From IMG/VR virus record IMGVR_UViG_3300030382_003101, positions 1 to 37,100 of that record: a stretch of DNA of 37,100 bases, one strand, 5' to 3'. Below, in pieces: positions 15,189-37,099 of the stretch. Every line of letters begins with the position of its first letter. Position 1 is the first letter of the stretch. Source of the stretch: a virus. The position numbers and the translations under genes were made by a program. The notes below the pieces were generated by a model. It was not told the origin of the DNA. It saw only the letters and a program-made list of their open reading frames with translations, and did not search any database.

Positions 15189-16219
15189 ATATAGTCTATT
15201 TGTTTATTTTTTAATTCTGGGAATAACGGTAATGACACGATGTGTCTTCCTATCCATTCAGTATTTGGCAATTTATGTACAAGTGATACATCACTATACG
15301 CTTTCATTAAATGAAGTGGTTCGAAATGGACACTACACTGAATACCAGAGTCATCCATGAAGTCCATAAATTTTACTCTATCTCTAACAAGCATTGGATA
15401 AAGATGAAGGCCAGTATTCTTCAATCTAAGATTGTAATTATAACGAATAATGCATCTAAGACGTTGTTCATTCATCCAGTTAAGCTTCTTAAGCTGTTCT
15501 ATTCCTATAGCTGCTTGAATATCATTCATGTTCATCTTCCATCCACAGAATGAAACGTCATACCCCCAACGACGTGATCCTGTATCAAGACCTTCATTAG
15601 AGTTCCTTTTAGTACATCCATGTAAACGAGCAAGCTTTAGGTATTTGTAATATTCTTCATTATTAGTAGTAATCATGCCACCAAATCCTGTAGTCATGTT
15701 CTTTGTTGGGTGGAATGAGTACGTTTGGAGATCTCCTTGATGGCAATTCTCTTCTATTAGATGTGCTGAATCAAAAATGACCGGTATCTCTCTTGGTTTC
15801 CAATCAACTGAATTACCAGTTAAATGAACTATTATTGCTGCCTTTGGACGGGTTAATTTGGAGAGTTCAGTAAATTCTCCCTCATCCATACATAGATTTT
15901 TCATATCTACATCACAAAATATCGGAGTAGCTCCACAATGATGAATAACAGATGCACTTGCTGTAAACGTTAAGGATGGAACAATTACATTATCTCCTTC
16001 ACCTATTCCTAAAGCCCGAAGAGAAAGAAATAAAGCAGAAGTACCAGAAGAAACTGCAACTGCATATTTAGATCCAACATATTTGGCAAACATTTCTTCA
16101 AATTCCTCAACCTTCTTACCCTGTCCTAGTTGACCTGATGATAAGACCTTATTAACCGCCCTCTTCTCAGCCCTGGTAATATATGGTTTGGCAAATGGTA
16201 TCTTATATTTCATTTTCAT
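15146..16219 (-). CDS. wbpE: DegT/DnrJ/EryC1 PLP aminotransferase, WbpE-like
   Basis: The enzyme converts the 3-keto UDP-sugar to the 3-amino sugar with a PLP cofactor. This 357-aa protein shows the family start PFAKPYITRAEKRAVNKVL, the cofactor pocket VAVSSGTSALFLSLRALGIG, VIVPSLTFTASASVIHHCGA, the IFDSAHLIEE segment and the PLP lysine in YSFHPTKNMTTGFGGMITT (about residue 170). Length agrees with WbpE (about 359). The start at ATG 16219 has TATATG context; an in-frame ATG at 16231 adds four residues. It overlaps the truncated dehydrogenase gene upstream. Confidence 0.87.
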   Translation of the reverse strand: MKMKYKIPFAKPYITRAEKRAVNKVLSSGQLGQGKKVEEFEEMFAKYVGSKYAVAVSSGTSALFLSLRALGIGEGDNVIVPSLTFTASASVIHHCGATPIFCDVDMKNLCMDEGEFTELSKLTRPKAAIIVHLTGNSVDWKPREIPVIFDSAHLIEENCHQGDLQTYSFHPTKNMTTGFGGMITTNNEEYYKYLKLARLHGCTKRNSNEGLDTGSRRWGYDVSFCGWKMNMNDIQAAIGIEQLKKLNWMNEQRLRCIIRYNYNLRLKNTGLHLYPMLVRDRVKFMDFMDDSGIQCSVHFEPLHLMKAYSDVSLVHKLPNTEWIGRHIVSLPLFPELKNKQIDYICQRIKKSGFSNFP

Positions 16220-16946
16220 ATATTTTATCAAAATCTTTTACTAATTGAGTAAAAACATCTTCTAAAAGATCACAATTTGGAACAACGCAATGGCCACCGA
16301 TTTTTCCTTCCATTGGTCTCAAATAAGGTTTTCTGTAATGACCCATGCCAAGCTCCTCATATCCTTCATTATAAGTTTTGTTTGCAACCGTATACACCTC
16401 CTCAAAGTTTAAATTATATTTATCACAAATTCTTGCCACTTCTTTACAAGCAATAATCTGCCAACCATATAAAGTGGTAGATATAATCTTTAACATTTCA
16501 GTCGTCTGAGATTTATCGAATACTATTGTTTTAATTTTGGCATTAATAAAATATTCAGCAACTTTATTCGCTACTTCTTTTTCACCTCCTATAAATTTAA
16601 CAAAAGTCCTAATACTATTAGCCAAATTAGGATGTTTCCCACGCACAGGAGAATGTACTGTTTTAGGGTGAGAAATCCTTGATGTCGTGCCAATAGGTAC
16701 GGTTGAATGAATGATAACAATGCTAGGATTATAAAAACTGATATATGTATTGACATATTCTTCAAATCTTTGTGAATAAGGAAAAGTAATATGAAGGTAG
16801 TCCACATGCTTTGGTAAGCCAGATTTAGGTTCTACGTCTCTAATAAAAACAGACTCCCCGTGTGCATCATGCAATACTTCGTAGAGTCCTTTTCCTATCT
16901 CTCCTGCACCAACCACTAAAGAAGTGGGATGTTGTTTTTGTACCAT
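16203..16946 (-). CDS. short nucleotide-sugar dehydrogenase-like protein, WbpA/UGD family, lacking the C-terminal domain
   Basis: The 247-aa protein probably oxidises C6 of UDP-GlcNAc to the uronate. It has a Rossmann start (SLVVGAGEIGKGLYEVL), VIIHSTVPIGTTSRI (the Thr motif of UDP-Glc/GDP-Man dehydrogenases), HSPVRGKHPNL and the helix TEMLKIISTTLYGWQIIACKE. It ends soon after GKIGGHCVVPNCDLLEDV, the catalytic Cys loop (GGHC of UDP-GlcNAc 6-dehydrogenases). Normal enzymes are about 420-440 aa with a C-terminal nucleotide-binding domain. That domain is absent, and the next gene starts in the overlap. It is either a minimal enzyme or one that needs a partner. A 32-base segment of this gene (16794-16825) occurs again at 34113-34144. 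Confidence 0.72.
   Translation of the reverse strand: MVQKQHPTSLVVGAGEIGKGLYEVLHDAHGESVFIRDVEPKSGLPKHVDYLHITFPYSQRFEEYVNTYISFYNPSIVIIHSTVPIGTTSRISHPKTVHSPVRGKHPNLANSIRTFVKFIGGEKEVANKVAEYFINAKIKTIVFDKSQTTEMLKIISTTLYGWQIIACKEVARICDKYNLNFEEVYTVANKTYNEGYEELGMGHYRKPYLRPMEGKIGGHCVVPNCDLLEDVFTQLVKDFDKIYENEI
16794..16825. repeat. 32-bp perfect repeat, copy A (inside dehydrogenase gene)
   Basis: The plus strand here reads AAGGTAGTCC...AAGCCAGATT and is identical over 32 bases to 34113-34144, in the same orientation. This copy lies antisense within the leftward dehydrogenase gene (codons for about KSGLPKHVDYL). The other copy is in the rightward transcript, so the two RNAs would be complementary. Confidence 0.9.
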
Positions 16947-25152: not shown

Positions 25153-26481
25153 TTAATACCCTGTTATAGAACTACGTTGTCTGACAATCTGTTTACCCCT
25201 TCCTCTGCGTCTTCTGGATGCTTGCGATGGCCTATAGCTAACCACGAACATGCGAAGTGCATCTGCTCCATGATCCTCTACCTTGACTGGCATGTCTCTG
25301 CGTGGAGCGTTGGCATTCTTGGATTGTTCCATCCAACGATAATTCTCTATTTCACGAATAAGGTTCTCACAGTTCTCTGTGATGAAGAGCTTTGGCCTAC
25401 CATTTGAAGGGTTCACCTTGAGCAGTGCCTTTATCTCGTTTATCCCTGAAACAACCCATCCATGTTCACCTGGCTGTGTTTTAACAGCCGGAGTGATATA
25501 GAGACCTCTAGTAGCGTAATCGAGCATCTCTTGTTTACCGGATGGATCACCATAAGTGAGTCTGTAATCAAACTCTGTATGCTTAGATAATATCACACCT
25601 GAATGAAAATCTATAGTTTGTTCCCTCTGATAATACTCATCAAAGACAATTACTTCACCGTCTGCATTCACATGTATCCACAAACACGCTGTCGGATTAG
25701 TGGCTCCAAAGTCCATAGCTCTATACACTTCTGACCCTGGATTAGGTTTCCACTCTGGCATTAAGTGATGTGCTCTGTTCCATTCTTTGTAGACCATTCC
25801 TTCAAAACGAGTGAACTCTGCCATGTATTCTTGAGCAAACAGATCTTCACCCATGTCACTTTTAGCCTTCTCTATCTCAATATTAGGAACATATGGATTG
25901 TCATAACTGGTGTAATGAAAGGACTTGTATTCTTCATGATCCTTTGATCCTAGTTTATAGATGTTCCAGAAATGGTTGTATCCTTTTGGTGTTCCAATAA
26001 ACATTGCCCACCCTTCATGATCTGCTAAGGCTGGTCTGATAATTTCATCGAAGACGTTTGGTTTGATAGTTGCATACTCATCCAGTACCACTCCGTGTAA
26101 TCCCACACCTCGAAGGGAATCTTCTTTATCTGCCCCTTTAAGTTCAATAAGACTACCATTTCCAATTTCGACATATAACTCTGATTCATTCTTCTTCTTA
26201 ATTAACTCAGGTGGTAGTTTCATTAGCTGATCACTTAACATCCTCCATGCAATCATCTTAGCCTGGGAGTAAGTAGGGGCTATATACCAATAACGCCCTT
26301 TGGTAGTGACAAGAGCTTCTTCTAATAAATAGTTTATCGCCATCACTGTCTTACCTGTACGTCTTCCTAAGCAACAAACCTTATACCTGTGGTCATCATC
26401 AAGAATCTCCTTCTGTACTTGGTGTGGTGTCCACAGAACAACAACTTTTTTTTTCTCGTCACCATCTGGCAAATTCTCCAT
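25153..26481 (-). CDS. terL: terminase large subunit (packaging ATPase/nuclease)
   Basis: The motor pumps DNA into the prohead and cuts it. Visible are Walker A GRRTGKT (residues 39-45), an aromatic adenine-site WTPHQVQKEIL upstream, YWYIAPTYSQAKMIAWRML, Walker B with catalytic Glu in LHGVVLDEYA, and coupling motif FIGTPKGYNHFW. The RNase H-like nuclease has Asp in YRAMDFGATNPTACLWI, LTYGDPSGKQEML and DHGADALRMFV. I place the start at ATG 26481 (MENLPDGDEKKK), since the upstream 18 codons from 26535 lie inside the AP2 domain of the overlapping homing endonuclease gene. The overlap with that gene is 23 bases. It ends TAA-T-ATG into the portal gene. Confidence 0.92.
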   Translation of the reverse strand: MENLPDGDEKKKVVVLWTPHQVQKEILDDDHRYKVCCLGRRTGKTVMAINYLLEEALVTTKGRYWYIAPTYSQAKMIAWRMLSDQLMKLPPELIKKKNESELYVEIGNGSLIELKGADKEDSLRGVGLHGVVLDEYATIKPNVFDEIIRPALADHEGWAMFIGTPKGYNHFWNIYKLGSKDHEEYKSFHYTSYDNPYVPNIEIEKAKSDMGEDLFAQEYMAEFTRFEGMVYKEWNRAHHLMPEWKPNPGSEVYRAMDFGATNPTACLWIHVNADGEVIVFDEYYQREQTIDFHSGVILSKHTEFDYRLTYGDPSGKQEMLDYATRGLYITPAVKTQPGEHGWVVSGINEIKALLKVNPSNGRPKLFITENCENLIREIENYRWMEQSKNANAPRRDMPVKVEDHGADALRMFVVSYRPSQASRRRRGRGKQIVRQRSSITGY

Positions 26482-26935
26482 GTAATTCTTTAGCAGCATT
26501 TTTATAAACTCTATATGCATCTTTGGAGGAATCAAAAGAACCTAGGCTGATCCTTTTACCTTCTTTCATAATTCTAGCCCTCCATTTATTTTTTGCTTTA
26601 TCTAGATAAACCCCCTTGTAACCACTTGTATTATCCTTACTTCTTATTCGGTTCATCGCGTTTTGGGAGTATGTACAAACTCGTAAATTCGACTTTTGAT
26701 TATTTAGTGGATTACCATCAATGTGATCAATTACTTTTCCTTTAGGACAATTAATAAGCAAAGAGTGAGCTATCACTTGCTTCTTGCTAATTGTCGCTCT
26801 TGGATAATTGTCATGATATAAGTGCCACCTTCTTTTTTTTCTGTATTTCAATCGTCTATGTTTCGTTCGATAATTCAATAACTCAAAATCTTCATCGTCA
26901 ACATACATCGGAACCGACGCTCTTACTTTATACAT
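26459..26935 (-). CDS. HNH/AP2 homing endonuclease between terS and terL
   Basis: This protein of about 158 aa (starting MYKVRASVPMYVDDEDFE at 26935) has an N-terminal region common to phage HNH proteins (WHLYHDNYPRATISKK). The HNH core is VIAHSLLINCPKGKVIDHID followed by GNPLNNQKSNLRVCTYSQNA. A C-terminal AP2 domain follows (GYKGVYLDKAKNKWRARI, GSFDSSKDAYRVYKNAAKEL). It overlaps the end of terS by 8 bases and the start of terL by 23, so it was fitted into the terS-terL junction. An upstream ATG at 27052 lies inside terS and is less likely. It is a paralogue of the endonuclease spanning the map ends. Confidence 0.87.
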   Translation of the reverse strand: MYKVRASVPMYVDDEDFELLNYRTKHRRLKYRKKRRWHLYHDNYPRATISKKQVIAHSLLINCPKGKVIDHIDGNPLNNQKSNLRVCTYSQNAMNRIRSKDNTSGYKGVYLDKAKNKWRARIMKEGKRISLGSFDSSKDAYRVYKNAAKELHGEFARW

Positions 26936-27224
26936 TGTCACTGGAATGATCTTCTTTTCCATCACCTCGTTTAATAATATATTCCAAAAGCTCCATCTTA
27001 CCATCCATATCAACGGGCTGAGTAGCTTTCCCCATAAGCTGATCAAATACATAGCTGATCATTCTAGCGTCTCCAGCCCTTACTTTACTGATGGTCTTTT
27101 CTAACAACAAATCTAATTTCTCTCCAGTCCAAGCTTCATTAAATGCCTTGCGGAATGGATTAGATACACTTCCTTTTGGTCGTCCACCAAGTTTACCGTT
27201 TTGTCGTGATGCATCTCCTGGCAT
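26928..27224 (-). CDS. terS: terminase small subunit-like protein (DUF5681-like start)
   Basis: This 98-aa protein begins NGKLGGRPKGSVSNPFRKAF, the glycine/arginine-rich start of DUF5681-type phage proteins found at the small-subunit position. A helical part follows (EKLDLLLEKTISKVRAGDAR and MISYVFDQLMGKATQPVD). Its place before terL fits DNA recognition for packaging. The C-terminus (RGDGKEDHSSDNV) meets the homing endonuclease start and may have been altered by its insertion. The role is inferred from context. Confidence 0.65.
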   Translation of the reverse strand: MPGDASRQNGKLGGRPKGSVSNPFRKAFNEAWTGEKLDLLLEKTISKVRAGDARMISYVFDQLMGKATQPVDMDGKMELLEYIIKRGDGKEDHSSDNV

Positions 27225-33047: not shown

Positions 33048-33170
33048 ATGTATGACCACATTAACCATAGTTCTTATAATCAGTTTGATATTCTTTGTGC
33101 TGGCTTTCCCTGTCAGCCATTTTCTAACGCAGGACTAAAAAAAGCTCTTGATTCATTTAATAAAAAATAA
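33048..33170 (+). pseudogene. remnant of a DNA (cytosine-5) methyltransferase, catalytic motif IV only
   Basis: The 40-codon frame reads MYDHINHSSYNQ then FDILCAGFPCQPFSNAG and LKKALDSFNKK before a stop. FDILCAGFPCQPFSNAG is motif IV of C5-methyltransferases, including the catalytic PCQ, with the same DILCAGFPCQ string as M.HhaI. The rest of the enzyme (over 250 residues) is absent. The fragment is embedded between intact early genes. A different frame over the same bases (33052-33138) could encode a 28-aa membrane peptide. It is most likely a relic; translation as a free peptide is possible. Confidence 0.7.
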
Positions 33171-33172
33171 TT

Positions 33173-33544
33173 ATGAAAAAAGATAAAACAGTAACAATAG
33201 GAGGCGTGGAATACATTCCTAAAGATTCAATAAGTTTTACTAGAGCAAAAGGACTAGATGATATGCCTTATGTAATCGTTCGCACTTATTCCGCTGGAGT
33301 ATTTGCAGGATATTTAGAAAAGAAAAAAGACCAGAACGCTATTATGCGTAATGCTCGTAGACTCTGGTACTGGGACGGAGCAGCTAGTTTATCTCAACTC
33401 GCAATGGAAGGAGTATCTAAGCCTGAAAAATGTAAATTCCCCTGTGAAGTAGATAAAATTGAACTTGACCAAGTAATTGAAGTGATTGAATGTACACAAA
33501 AAGCTAAAGATTCAATAGCATCTGTAACTATATGGAAGAAATAA
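33173..33544 (+). CDS. DUF6948-like phage protein
   Basis: This 123-aa protein has the pattern YVIVRTYSAGVFAGYLEKK, ARRLWYWDGAASLSQLAMEG and PCEVDKIELDQVIEVIECT. I recognise this as a widespread phage family of unknown function (DUF6948). Its end overlaps the start of a glycine-rich repeat protein, an arrangement I recall from other phages. It starts two bases after the methyltransferase remnant. The family is fairly sure, the role unknown. Confidence 0.72.
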   Translation: MKKDKTVTIGGVEYIPKDSISFTRAKGLDDMPYVIVRTYSAGVFAGYLEKKKDQNAIMRNARRLWYWDGAASLSQLAMEGVSKPEKCKFPCEVDKIELDQVIEVIECTQKAKDSIASVTIWKK

Positions 33545-33699
33545 CTAAACAAGATATGAAGGGTTCTGGTGATGGTTCTGGTGATGGTTCTGGTGATGGT
33601 GATGGTTATGGTTCTGGTTATGGTTATAGTGATGGTTTTGGTGATGGTTCTGGTGATGGTTCTGGTGATGGTTCTGGTGATGGTGATGGTTATGGCTAA
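33532..33699 (+). CDS. glycine-rich GSGDG-repeat protein (55 aa)
   Basis: After MEEITKQDMK the protein consists of GSGDGSGDG, GDGYGSGYGYSDGFG and GSGDG units up to the stop. The DNA is an imperfect tandem array of GGTTCTGGTGAT-like units, readable in other frames as long valine/methionine or threonine/isoleucine ORFs, which are artefacts of the repeat. It overlaps the DUF6948-like gene by 13 bases. Asp/Gly repeats could bind calcium, but this is a guess. Repeat number is likely variable. Confidence 0.6.
   Translation: MEEITKQDMKGSGDGSGDGSGDGDGYGSGYGYSDGFGDGSGDGSGDGSGDGDGYG
33558..33696. repeat. short tandem repeat (GGTTCTGGTGAT-type)
   Basis: About 140 bases are made of imperfect 6- and 12-base units (GGTTCT, GGTGAT, GGTTAT). 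All lie inside the glycine-rich ORF. Such arrays expand and contract by slippage. Confidence 0.8.
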
Positions 33700-33775
33700 A
33701 CTAAAGAACACCCCAGTAATTAAACCAAAGTGCCTTCGCTATCAGCGCCATCTGGATTTAACCAGAATGTTGTGA
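33692..33775 (+). CDS. very short ORF (27 aa)
   Basis: The ATG overlaps the stop of the glycine-rich gene (ATGGCTAA) and gives MAKLKNTPVIKPKCLRYQRH ending DLTRML. The coupling context is the only support. It is basic with one Cys. It could be a real short peptide or the decayed end of a longer gene. Confidence 0.25.
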   Translation: MAKLKNTPVIKPKCLRYQRHLDLTRML

Positions 33776-33824
33776 CAGCTGATATGTGGGAAGAATAATA
33801 ATACAAAATAACTAACATGTCAAT

Positions 33825-34136
33825 ATGAGTGAAGCAAAGAAAAAAATTGTCGACACAATAGAATCACTGATTATCAACCCCAACATGCTTGATGAGTGGA
33901 AGAATAGTGACGGTTGTTTGCCGGGTGTTATTGCGGATAAAATTGATGAAGCCCTAGACGACTACCTCCTCTCCGTGCTTCCGCAGGAGAAGATAACATG
34001 TATCTTCGGTGATCCTGATGTGGAAGATACACATGACGAGGATTGTAATACCTGTAGCTTCAACACCTGTCTCAAAGAAATTAAGAAAAACGCAGGGATA
34101 AAAGAATTATGTAAGGTAGTCCACATGCTTTGGTAA
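33825..34136 (+). CDS. hypothetical early protein with Cys cluster (103 aa)
   Basis: The frame starts MSEAKKKIVDTIESLIINPN and has a Cys-rich part (EDTHDEDCNTCSFNTCLKEI, C-x2-C-x4-C), possibly a metal site. The last eight codons (KVVHMLW and stop) are encoded by the 32-bp repeat shared with 16794-16825, so the original C-terminus may have been replaced. Start context is CAATATG. Confidence 0.6.
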   Translation: MSEAKKKIVDTIESLIINPNMLDEWKNSDGCLPGVIADKIDEALDDYLLSVLPQEKITCIFGDPDVEDTHDEDCNTCSFNTCLKEIKKNAGIKELCKVVHMLW

Positions 34137-34144
34137 GCCAGATT
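34113..34144. repeat. 32-bp perfect repeat, copy B (end of early gene, left edge of the island)
   Basis: It is identical to plus-strand 16794-16825. It covers the end of the gene at 33825-34136 and stops exactly where base composition and ribosome-site type change. Confidence 0.9.
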
Positions 34145-34145
34145 A

Positions 34146-34167
34146 AGGTATAATACCTAGCGGGAGG
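34146..34167 (+). promoter_or_regulatory. palindromic -10 box and ribosome site at the start of the GC-richer island
   Basis: AGGTATAATACCT (34146-34158) is a perfect inverted repeat around a central A and contains TATAAT. GGGAGG follows, six bases before the ATG at 34173. A repressor could cover the -10 box. No clear -35 is seen because the upstream bases belong to the 32-bp repeat. Confidence 0.45.
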
Positions 34168-34172
34168 TACCA

Positions 34173-34373
34173 ATGACATACCACAAAGTCATAATCTATT
34201 TCAGCCCCACGATCCGACTTCATATCATGAGGGACACCGTCAAGCAGTCGTTAGCTGAGGCAAAAGAGCGTAATCTCGACAGAGCGCAGAAGATTCTGCT
34301 GGAACGCTGGCAGGACGACAAACAGATTTACCGACTTGATGTCACTGAAGATCTCAAGAAACTAACCTACTGA
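34173..34373 (+). CDS. small helical protein (66 aa), unknown
   Basis: The frame starts MTYHKVIIYFSPTIRLHIMR and is charged and helical (LAEAKERNLDRAQKILLERW). It has a proper Shine-Dalgarno (GGGAGG), unlike most genes of the phage, and visibly higher G+C. It is the first gene of the island 34146-35641. No family is recognised. Confidence 0.6.
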   Translation: MTYHKVIIYFSPTIRLHIMRDTVKQSLAEAKERNLDRAQKILLERWQDDKQIYRLDVTEDLKKLTY

Positions 34374-34381
34374 AGCCAAAG

Positions 34382-34457
34382 AGGTGAGTTCAAACATTGG
34401 TAGAGCATCGAACTGATACTTCGAAGGCCGATGGTTCGAGTCTATCTACGCCTACCA
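34382..34457 (+). tRNA. tRNA-like element, anticodon GAT (Ile), with encoded CCA and atypical D-stem
   Basis: The 76-base element keeps canonical numbering: T8, G18G19, A21, anticodon stem TCGAA/TTCGA with loop CTGATAC (anticodon GAT), T-arm GATGG-TTCGAGT-CTATC, discriminator A and CCA (34455-34457). The acceptor pairs at 5-6 of 7 positions (AGGTGAG with TACGCCT, one A-A mismatch, G-T pairs). Positions 10-13 (CAAA) do not pair with 22-25 (GAGC); a shifted GTTC/GAGC pairing is possible. It may be a functional but unusual tRNA-Ile, a decayed one, or a tRNA mimic. No other tRNA was found. Confidence 0.55.
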
Positions 34458-34464
34458 TGTCCCT

Positions 34465-34529
34465 TCAAAACTTCACTCAATAGTGGCGAACGGATAGGCG
34501 CTACCATCACCTATTGAGTGAAGTTTTGA
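34465..34529 (+). promoter_or_regulatory. 19-bp perfect hairpin directly upstream of a ribosome site
   Basis: 34465-34483 and 34511-34529 are perfectly complementary over 19 bp. The 27-base loop can form its own short stem (GTGGCG with CGCTAC). It begins eight bases after the tRNA-like CCA. It ends where the GAGGAG ribosome site of the gene at 34540 starts, so it can control access to that site or mark an RNA processing point. Confidence 0.65.
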
Positions 34530-34539
34530 GGAGAGCAAC

Positions 34540-34794
34540 ATGAGAATGATGAGAAGGAGTGACTTCGATGCGCTTGATACCGTACTGTGCAGGGACTGTG
34601 ACCATAGAGTCACACTCGTATTTGTGCTTGCGGTCAAAGACTCACCGAAGTTCGTTTCGGTGGGGAAGTGTGAGACATGCCACAAGAATGGAGATGAACG
34701 ATCTATCCTTGCATTCGCGAGTGTTTCGCAAAAAACGTGGCACGAGGGAGTCTCAGGAGGAATGACAATTATTCAGATAAGGACGAGACCGTGA
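34540..34794 (+). CDS. small zinc-ribbon protein (84 aa)
   Basis: The protein has two Cys pairs, LCRDCDHRVTLVFV and GKCETCHKNGDE, spaced about 25 residues apart, forming a zinc ribbon. Such small proteins often bind RNA polymerase or nucleic acid. It has a clear GAGGAG ribosome site after the long hairpin. Its stop overlaps the GTG start of the next gene. Confidence 0.62.
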   Translation: MRMMRRSDFDALDTVLCRDCDHRVTLVFVLAVKDSPKFVSVGKCETCHKNGDERSILAFASVSQKTWHEGVSGGMTIIQIRTRP

Positions 34795-36906: not shown

Positions 36907-37068
36907 CTATACTTGGTTTAAACAAGCAAATTCACCAAATAGTTCTTTTGCTTTTTTATTATATGCTTTAGCAGCGTCAATTTCATTTTTAAATACCCCA
37001 ATATAAATTCGTTCATACTGATGTTTAATTCCTGCCAACCATTTTAATTTTCTTATTTGGTAAACCAT
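36907..37068 (-). CDS. HNH/AP2 endonuclease copy with in-frame deletion, AP2 part only (53 aa)
   Basis: Read from ATG 37068, the protein is MVYQIRKLK joined directly to WLAGIKHQYERIYIGVFKNE and the rest of the AP2 domain (AAKAYNKKAKELFGEFACLN). Compared with the copy at 1-436, 342 bases (114 codons) are missing between two copies of TTTTAATTTT (68-77 and 410-419), so the frame is kept. The HNH core is lost. The bases 36907-36974 are also the true 3' end of the full-length gene when the map is closed. Confidence 0.75.
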   Translation of the reverse strand: MVYQIRKLKWLAGIKHQYERIYIGVFKNEIDAAKAYNKKAKELFGEFACLNQV

Positions 37069-37099
37069 AATGGGAATGCACGCAAAAGCAGAGCATGTA
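36975..37099. repeat. terminal duplication of the window start, with a 342-base deletion
   Basis: 36975-37051 equals 1-77 and 37052-37099 equals 420-467. This shows that the sequence closes on itself. The deletion lies between 10-bp direct repeats. It either reflects a real variant in the phage population or an assembly path at the ends. Confidence 0.92.

Follow-up and report, generated by a model that had tools for sequence, protein, structure and literature searches.

Genomic setting of the 32-bp repeat

The window analyzed here is the whole of a viral record, a stretch of 37,100 bases. Its virion genes (portal, terminase) are read leftward, as is a sugar block made up of an epimerase, a dehydrogenase-like gene and an aminotransferase, while the main ORFs between about 30.8 and 35.6 kb are read rightward. 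Within that rightward early region, plus-strand positions 34113-34144 are identical to plus-strand positions 16794-16825 in the dehydrogenase-like gene. The identity extends over 32 of 32 bases with shared orientation and ends at 32 bases on both sides, bearing out the perfect match between two sites claimed by the original prediction. The features concerned, with the basis of each in parentheses, are as follows.

16203..16946, minus strand: 247-aa UDP-glucose/GDP-mannose dehydrogenase-like gene (Pfam, PHROG, viral relatives)
16794..16825, minus strand: native copy of the 32-mer in the dehydrogenase-like gene, the minus strand coding for K-S-G-L-P-K-H-V-D-Y-L (exact match; HVDYL aligned in most viral relatives)
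33825..34136, plus strand: 103-aa ORF with no function assigned, its C-terminal KVVHMLW-stop coming from the probable insert (ORF list)
34113..34144, plus strand: probable derived copy of the 32-mer, AAGGTAGTCCACATGCTTTGGTAAGCCAGATT (exact match and AAGGTA direct repeat on its flanks)
34145..34150, plus strand: second copy of AAGGTA, a direct repeat with 34113-34118 bracketing the probable insertion (sequence)
34173..34373, plus strand: 66-aa ORF with a ribosome-binding-like GGGAGG, unaffected by the insertion (ORF list)

The match is the strongest non-tandem self-match within the contig, terminal overlap aside, and at an E value of 1.3e-12 (5e-5 for the next dispersed match) it is not due to chance. 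In a gapped self-comparison it grows to 50 columns at 92% identity (16782-16830 against 34100-34149), the extension containing three mismatches and one 1-base gap. Beyond the 32-mer, similarity in the left flank is marginally above random (13 of 400 random flanks were equally good) and that in the right flank is no better than random (109 of 400). No other exact direct repeat of at least 16 bp occurs in the contig besides the terminal overlap and a tandem GGTTCTGGTGAT array at about 33.6 kb. We found no third copy of the 32-mer in the contig, no match in an exact scan of 2.9 million viral contigs, and no match to its 23-base core in 84,980 bacterial and archaeal species genomes.

Dispersed repeats of this length were also sought in other viruses. 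Among 10 other viral records, repeats of at least 30 bp lying more than 500 bp apart were limited to contig-end repeats and one cluster in a single record (G007). In six cultured phages, terminal repeats aside, there were two cases: a 59-bp exact direct repeat in Paenibacillus phage API480 (33749-33807 and 42107-42165, 8.4 kb apart), and one 30-bp promoter pair in T7, whose 20-30-bp repeats are promoters located between genes or at gene starts, whereas one copy of the present repeat is interior coding sequence. The other four (P22, Pf-WMP3, HTVC106P and ANDSL2) had no repeats of at least 20 bp other than terminal repeats. The 32-mer repeat is therefore uncommon, yet inside the range seen in phage genomes.

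Several further features of the genome were recorded. The contig ends overlap (1-77 and 410-467 against 36975-37099), the end copy being without 342 bp, and this gap is in-frame and corresponds to a deletion between two 10-bp TTTTAATTTT repeats; the genome thus seems to be circular, and part of the population seems to carry the deletion. The gene spanning the end junction resembles, by eye, homing endonucleases of the HNH/AP2 type. Part of it (153-226) is 73% identical in DNA to 26673-26746, within an HNH-like ORF at 26459-27052, which suggests that the two are related homing endonucleases. In the early region, a 40-aa ORF at 33048-33170 corresponds to the catalytic PCQ motif region alone of a cytosine-5 DNA methyltransferase; over 48 nt it shares 92% identity with a Terrisporobacter phage methyltransferase gene. 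It may be what is left of a gene, or another small piece of captured sequence. A short ORF at 33556-33699 encodes Gly-Ser-Gly-Asp-Gly tandem repeats. The closest relative seen, the phage contig L005 (capsid 77%, terminase 61%), also has a glycine-rich tandem-repeat protein, but a different one, encoded in its early region (1-429); that region shows no similarity to the early region of the window, and the L005 sequence stops short of the sugar block. To the right of the repeat, 34382-34454 is tRNA-like, scoring above the gathering score of the Rfam tRNA model (35.3 bits), with a weak acceptor stem, a gapped acceptor arm and no call by ARAGORN. A perfect 19-bp inverted repeat at 34465-34529, predicted to form a strong hairpin (-35.6 kcal/mol over an 86-nt stretch), immediately precedes the GAGGAG and ATG of the ORF at 34540.

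The two copies in their genes

The assignment of the 247-aa ORF draws on a Pfam match (PF00984, E value of 4.5e-5, slightly under the curated cut-off), on PHROG 9148, UDP-glucose dehydrogenase (E value of 4.6e-8), and on relatives encoded at 26 viral loci. Here the 32-mer is in-frame coding sequence, 121-152 nt after the AUG. The HVDYL of its translation adjoins the conserved LHI-FPYS and aligns in the majority of viral relatives examined, and the upstream part, KSGLPK, is variable among them. As removal of the 32 bases would cause a frameshift, and given the reading frame and the alignment of HVDYL, the 16.8-kb copy is native. Insertion in the reverse direction, from 34.1 to 16.8 kb, was rejected on the same grounds: the dehydrogenase frame would break, and relatives align across the segment.

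The 34.1-kb copy sits differently. Its first six bases, AAGGTA, are repeated directly after it, so that a plausible empty site, TTATGT-AAGGTATAATACC, is restored when one 32-bp unit is taken out. A 6-bp repeat at an offset of 32 occurs at 18 of 37,062 positions of the genome (4.9e-4), and the 6-bp microhomology on the left is accordingly beyond chance. At the right junction, the source runs on with TAGGT and the target with AAGGT, which have four of five bases in common; the microhomology on this side, 1 bp or AGGT past one mismatch, is not beyond chance. In the absence of the insert, the 103-aa ORF would be 98 aa long and would end sensibly in ...KELCKV-stop instead of KELCKVVHMLW-stop.

Searches of viral and genome contigs, of six viral records and with Pfam/PHROG-type profiles found no relatives of the 103-aa ORF; its sole phage match (E value of 7) was set aside as chance-level noise. 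Likewise, none were found for the 66-aa ORF, an 84-aa ORF or the right flank. Two other origins for the 34.1-kb copy were considered and rejected. A CRISPR-type or target-site-duplicating insertion would be an unneeded assumption, AAGGTA being present in the source as well, and promoter capture is not indicated, as the TATAAT-like box at 34.15 kb was not called with a -35 box.

The original prediction also held that the 32-mer precisely marks the left edge of a compositionally different island, and this did not hold up. The best single G+C change point within 30.7-35.65 kb is at 33878, with 33550-34237 within 2 log units of it, and the ORF immediately left of the repeat (33825-34136) is already island-like in GC3 (0.46, compared with 0.46-0.60 for the ORFs to the right and 0.22 for 33173-33544). 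The repeat lies within the uncertainty of the change point without defining the edge of the island.

Less likely readings: artefact, antisense control and functional sites

We considered whether a library-preparation chimera or an assembly error could have placed dehydrogenase sequence at 34.1 kb. The contig apparently comes from uncultivated virus data (an IMG/VR-style record), and its ends close uncleanly, with the 342-bp in-frame deletion in the terminal overlap. However, a swap through a shared 32-mer presupposes the 32-mer at both sites; with each of the four flanks present and the dehydrogenase reading frame unbroken, misassembly via the shared 32-mer alone would not create a second copy. 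A chimera would have to dominate coverage to reach the consensus, and both flanks of the 34.1-kb copy are plus-strand coding and similar in GC3. An artefact is therefore unlikely.

The original prediction had further proposed that the rightward early RNA acts as a trans-acting antisense brake on the sugar block, the 32-base pairing lowering dehydrogenase expression or triggering cleavage of the duplex. Its structural premise stands: the dehydrogenase-like gene is on the minus strand (16203-16946), so its mRNA could pair without a mismatch, over all 32 bases, with any RNA transcribed rightward through 34.1 kb. The predicted duplex is worth -58.8 kcal/mol, or about -41 net after both sites are opened, and plus-strand ORFs on either side of the 34.1-kb copy make rightward transcription plausible. 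Antisense RNAs of phages that act via RNase III are known, such as OOP on cII (PMC12197685), and as with P22 sar, lambda OOP and P1 c4, long perfect RNA-RNA complementarity is possible within one phage genome. The regulatory part of the proposal has no backing other than this complementarity. Pairing would take place 121-152 nt into the dehydrogenase ORF, away from the ribosome-binding site. Trans-encoded antisense RNAs typically, though not universally, pair where translation starts. For P1 c4, the paired region surrounds the ribosome-binding site (PMC12197685). In P22, both sar and the a23 antisense region overlap their own targets on the other strand, while this copy is 17 kb from its target and, unlike sar, a23 and c4, falls within the 3' end of an ORF, of which it encodes the end. 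As there are no plus-strand promoter-like sites between 33799 and the copy (searched with the sigma-70 consensus only), a dedicated small RNA is not in view. Conservation of the pairing has no support from relatives, none having been found with the 34.1-kb region. Moreover, a same-orientation copy of a minus-strand gene within a rightward unit is automatically complementary to that gene's mRNA, so that a templated insertion yields perfect complementarity for free. Taken together, these points make an antisense brake very unlikely. There is an even smaller chance that the insertion was retained because the early RNA had thereby gained trans antisense activity against the phage's own sugar-modification operon; were the complementarity functional, it would mean that one copying error is enough to give rise to a trans antisense RNA in a single step.

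The perfect identity, the shared orientation and the increase in G+C somewhere within 33.55-34.24 kb could also be read as a functional DNA site present in two places (an attachment core, an operator or a resolution site) or as the junction of a foreign island, but we regard this as highly improbable, since at 16.8 kb the 32-mer is ordinary coding sequence to which relatives can be aligned, no third copy exists here or in the viral collection, the 23-base core is unmatched in the bacterial and archaeal genomes, the composition shift and the repeat do not coincide, and the 17 kb between the copies holds the phage's own virion and replication genes, such that excision would destroy the phage.

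A probable templated insertion from the dehydrogenase-like gene

The 34.1-kb copy is most likely a short templated insertion, produced by a microhomology-primed copy-paste slip in replication. During copying of the early region, a growing strand whose end at 34.1 kb was AAGGTA would have switched template by annealing to the AAGGTA in the dehydrogenase-like gene at 16.8 kb; 26 further bases would have been copied from that gene before the strand returned to AAGGTA at 34.1 kb. The outcome would be a 32-bp direct duplicate between AAGGTA repeats and an unchanged source gene, with the target ORF gaining five codons and a new stop. The identified source, the AAGGTA on the left, the imperfect TAGGT/AAGGT on the right and the retention of the donor all fit such a switch and return: the dehydrogenase-like gene is intact, and the insert matches this distant site at 32 of 32 bases. 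At the right junction, a single homologous base would have to suffice, unless a mismatch was corrected. That the switch was replicative, when it took place and that its outcome was neutral or near-neutral are what we infer from these observations.

No empty site turned up in any relative, so the apparent polarity of the insertion is read from two features, namely the direct repeat and the nature of the source gene. The weak similarity in the 12 bases further left, equalled by 13 of 400 random flanks, is also what an older and longer duplicate would leave once its edges had decayed. Two more changes in this genome are linked to repeats: the tandem array at 33.56-33.70 kb, and the terminal-overlap deletion of 342 bp, which is bounded by 10-bp repeats.

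In the microhomology-mediated template switching model, a stretch from elsewhere follows junction microhomology (PMC2621351), and short-range template switching has been documented in great apes (PMC7954356). The 34.1-kb copy resembles templated insertions of the MMBIR/FoSTeS type, in which a short distant segment is copied, the source is kept and the junction carries microhomology (PMC2621351, PMC7954356). Such events have been described mainly in eukaryotic genomes, with 2-5 bp of microhomology; the present case differs in being in a phage, in having 6 bp on one side and 1 (or four of five) on the other, and in that the pre-insertion allele was not observed.

Of the ideas in the original prediction, a scar of a recombination event is thus the one supported by the data: its source is clear, the insertion site carries a direct repeat, and the empty site can be reconstructed. 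Most likely, the 32-mer is a real but ordinary scar of a copy-paste replication error, and so a product of ordinary genome evolution. As such, it would be a clean, small case of a phage switching template within its own genome, one in which a single sequence reveals source, target and microhomology, and would indicate that a copying slip of this sort can rewrite the end of a gene.
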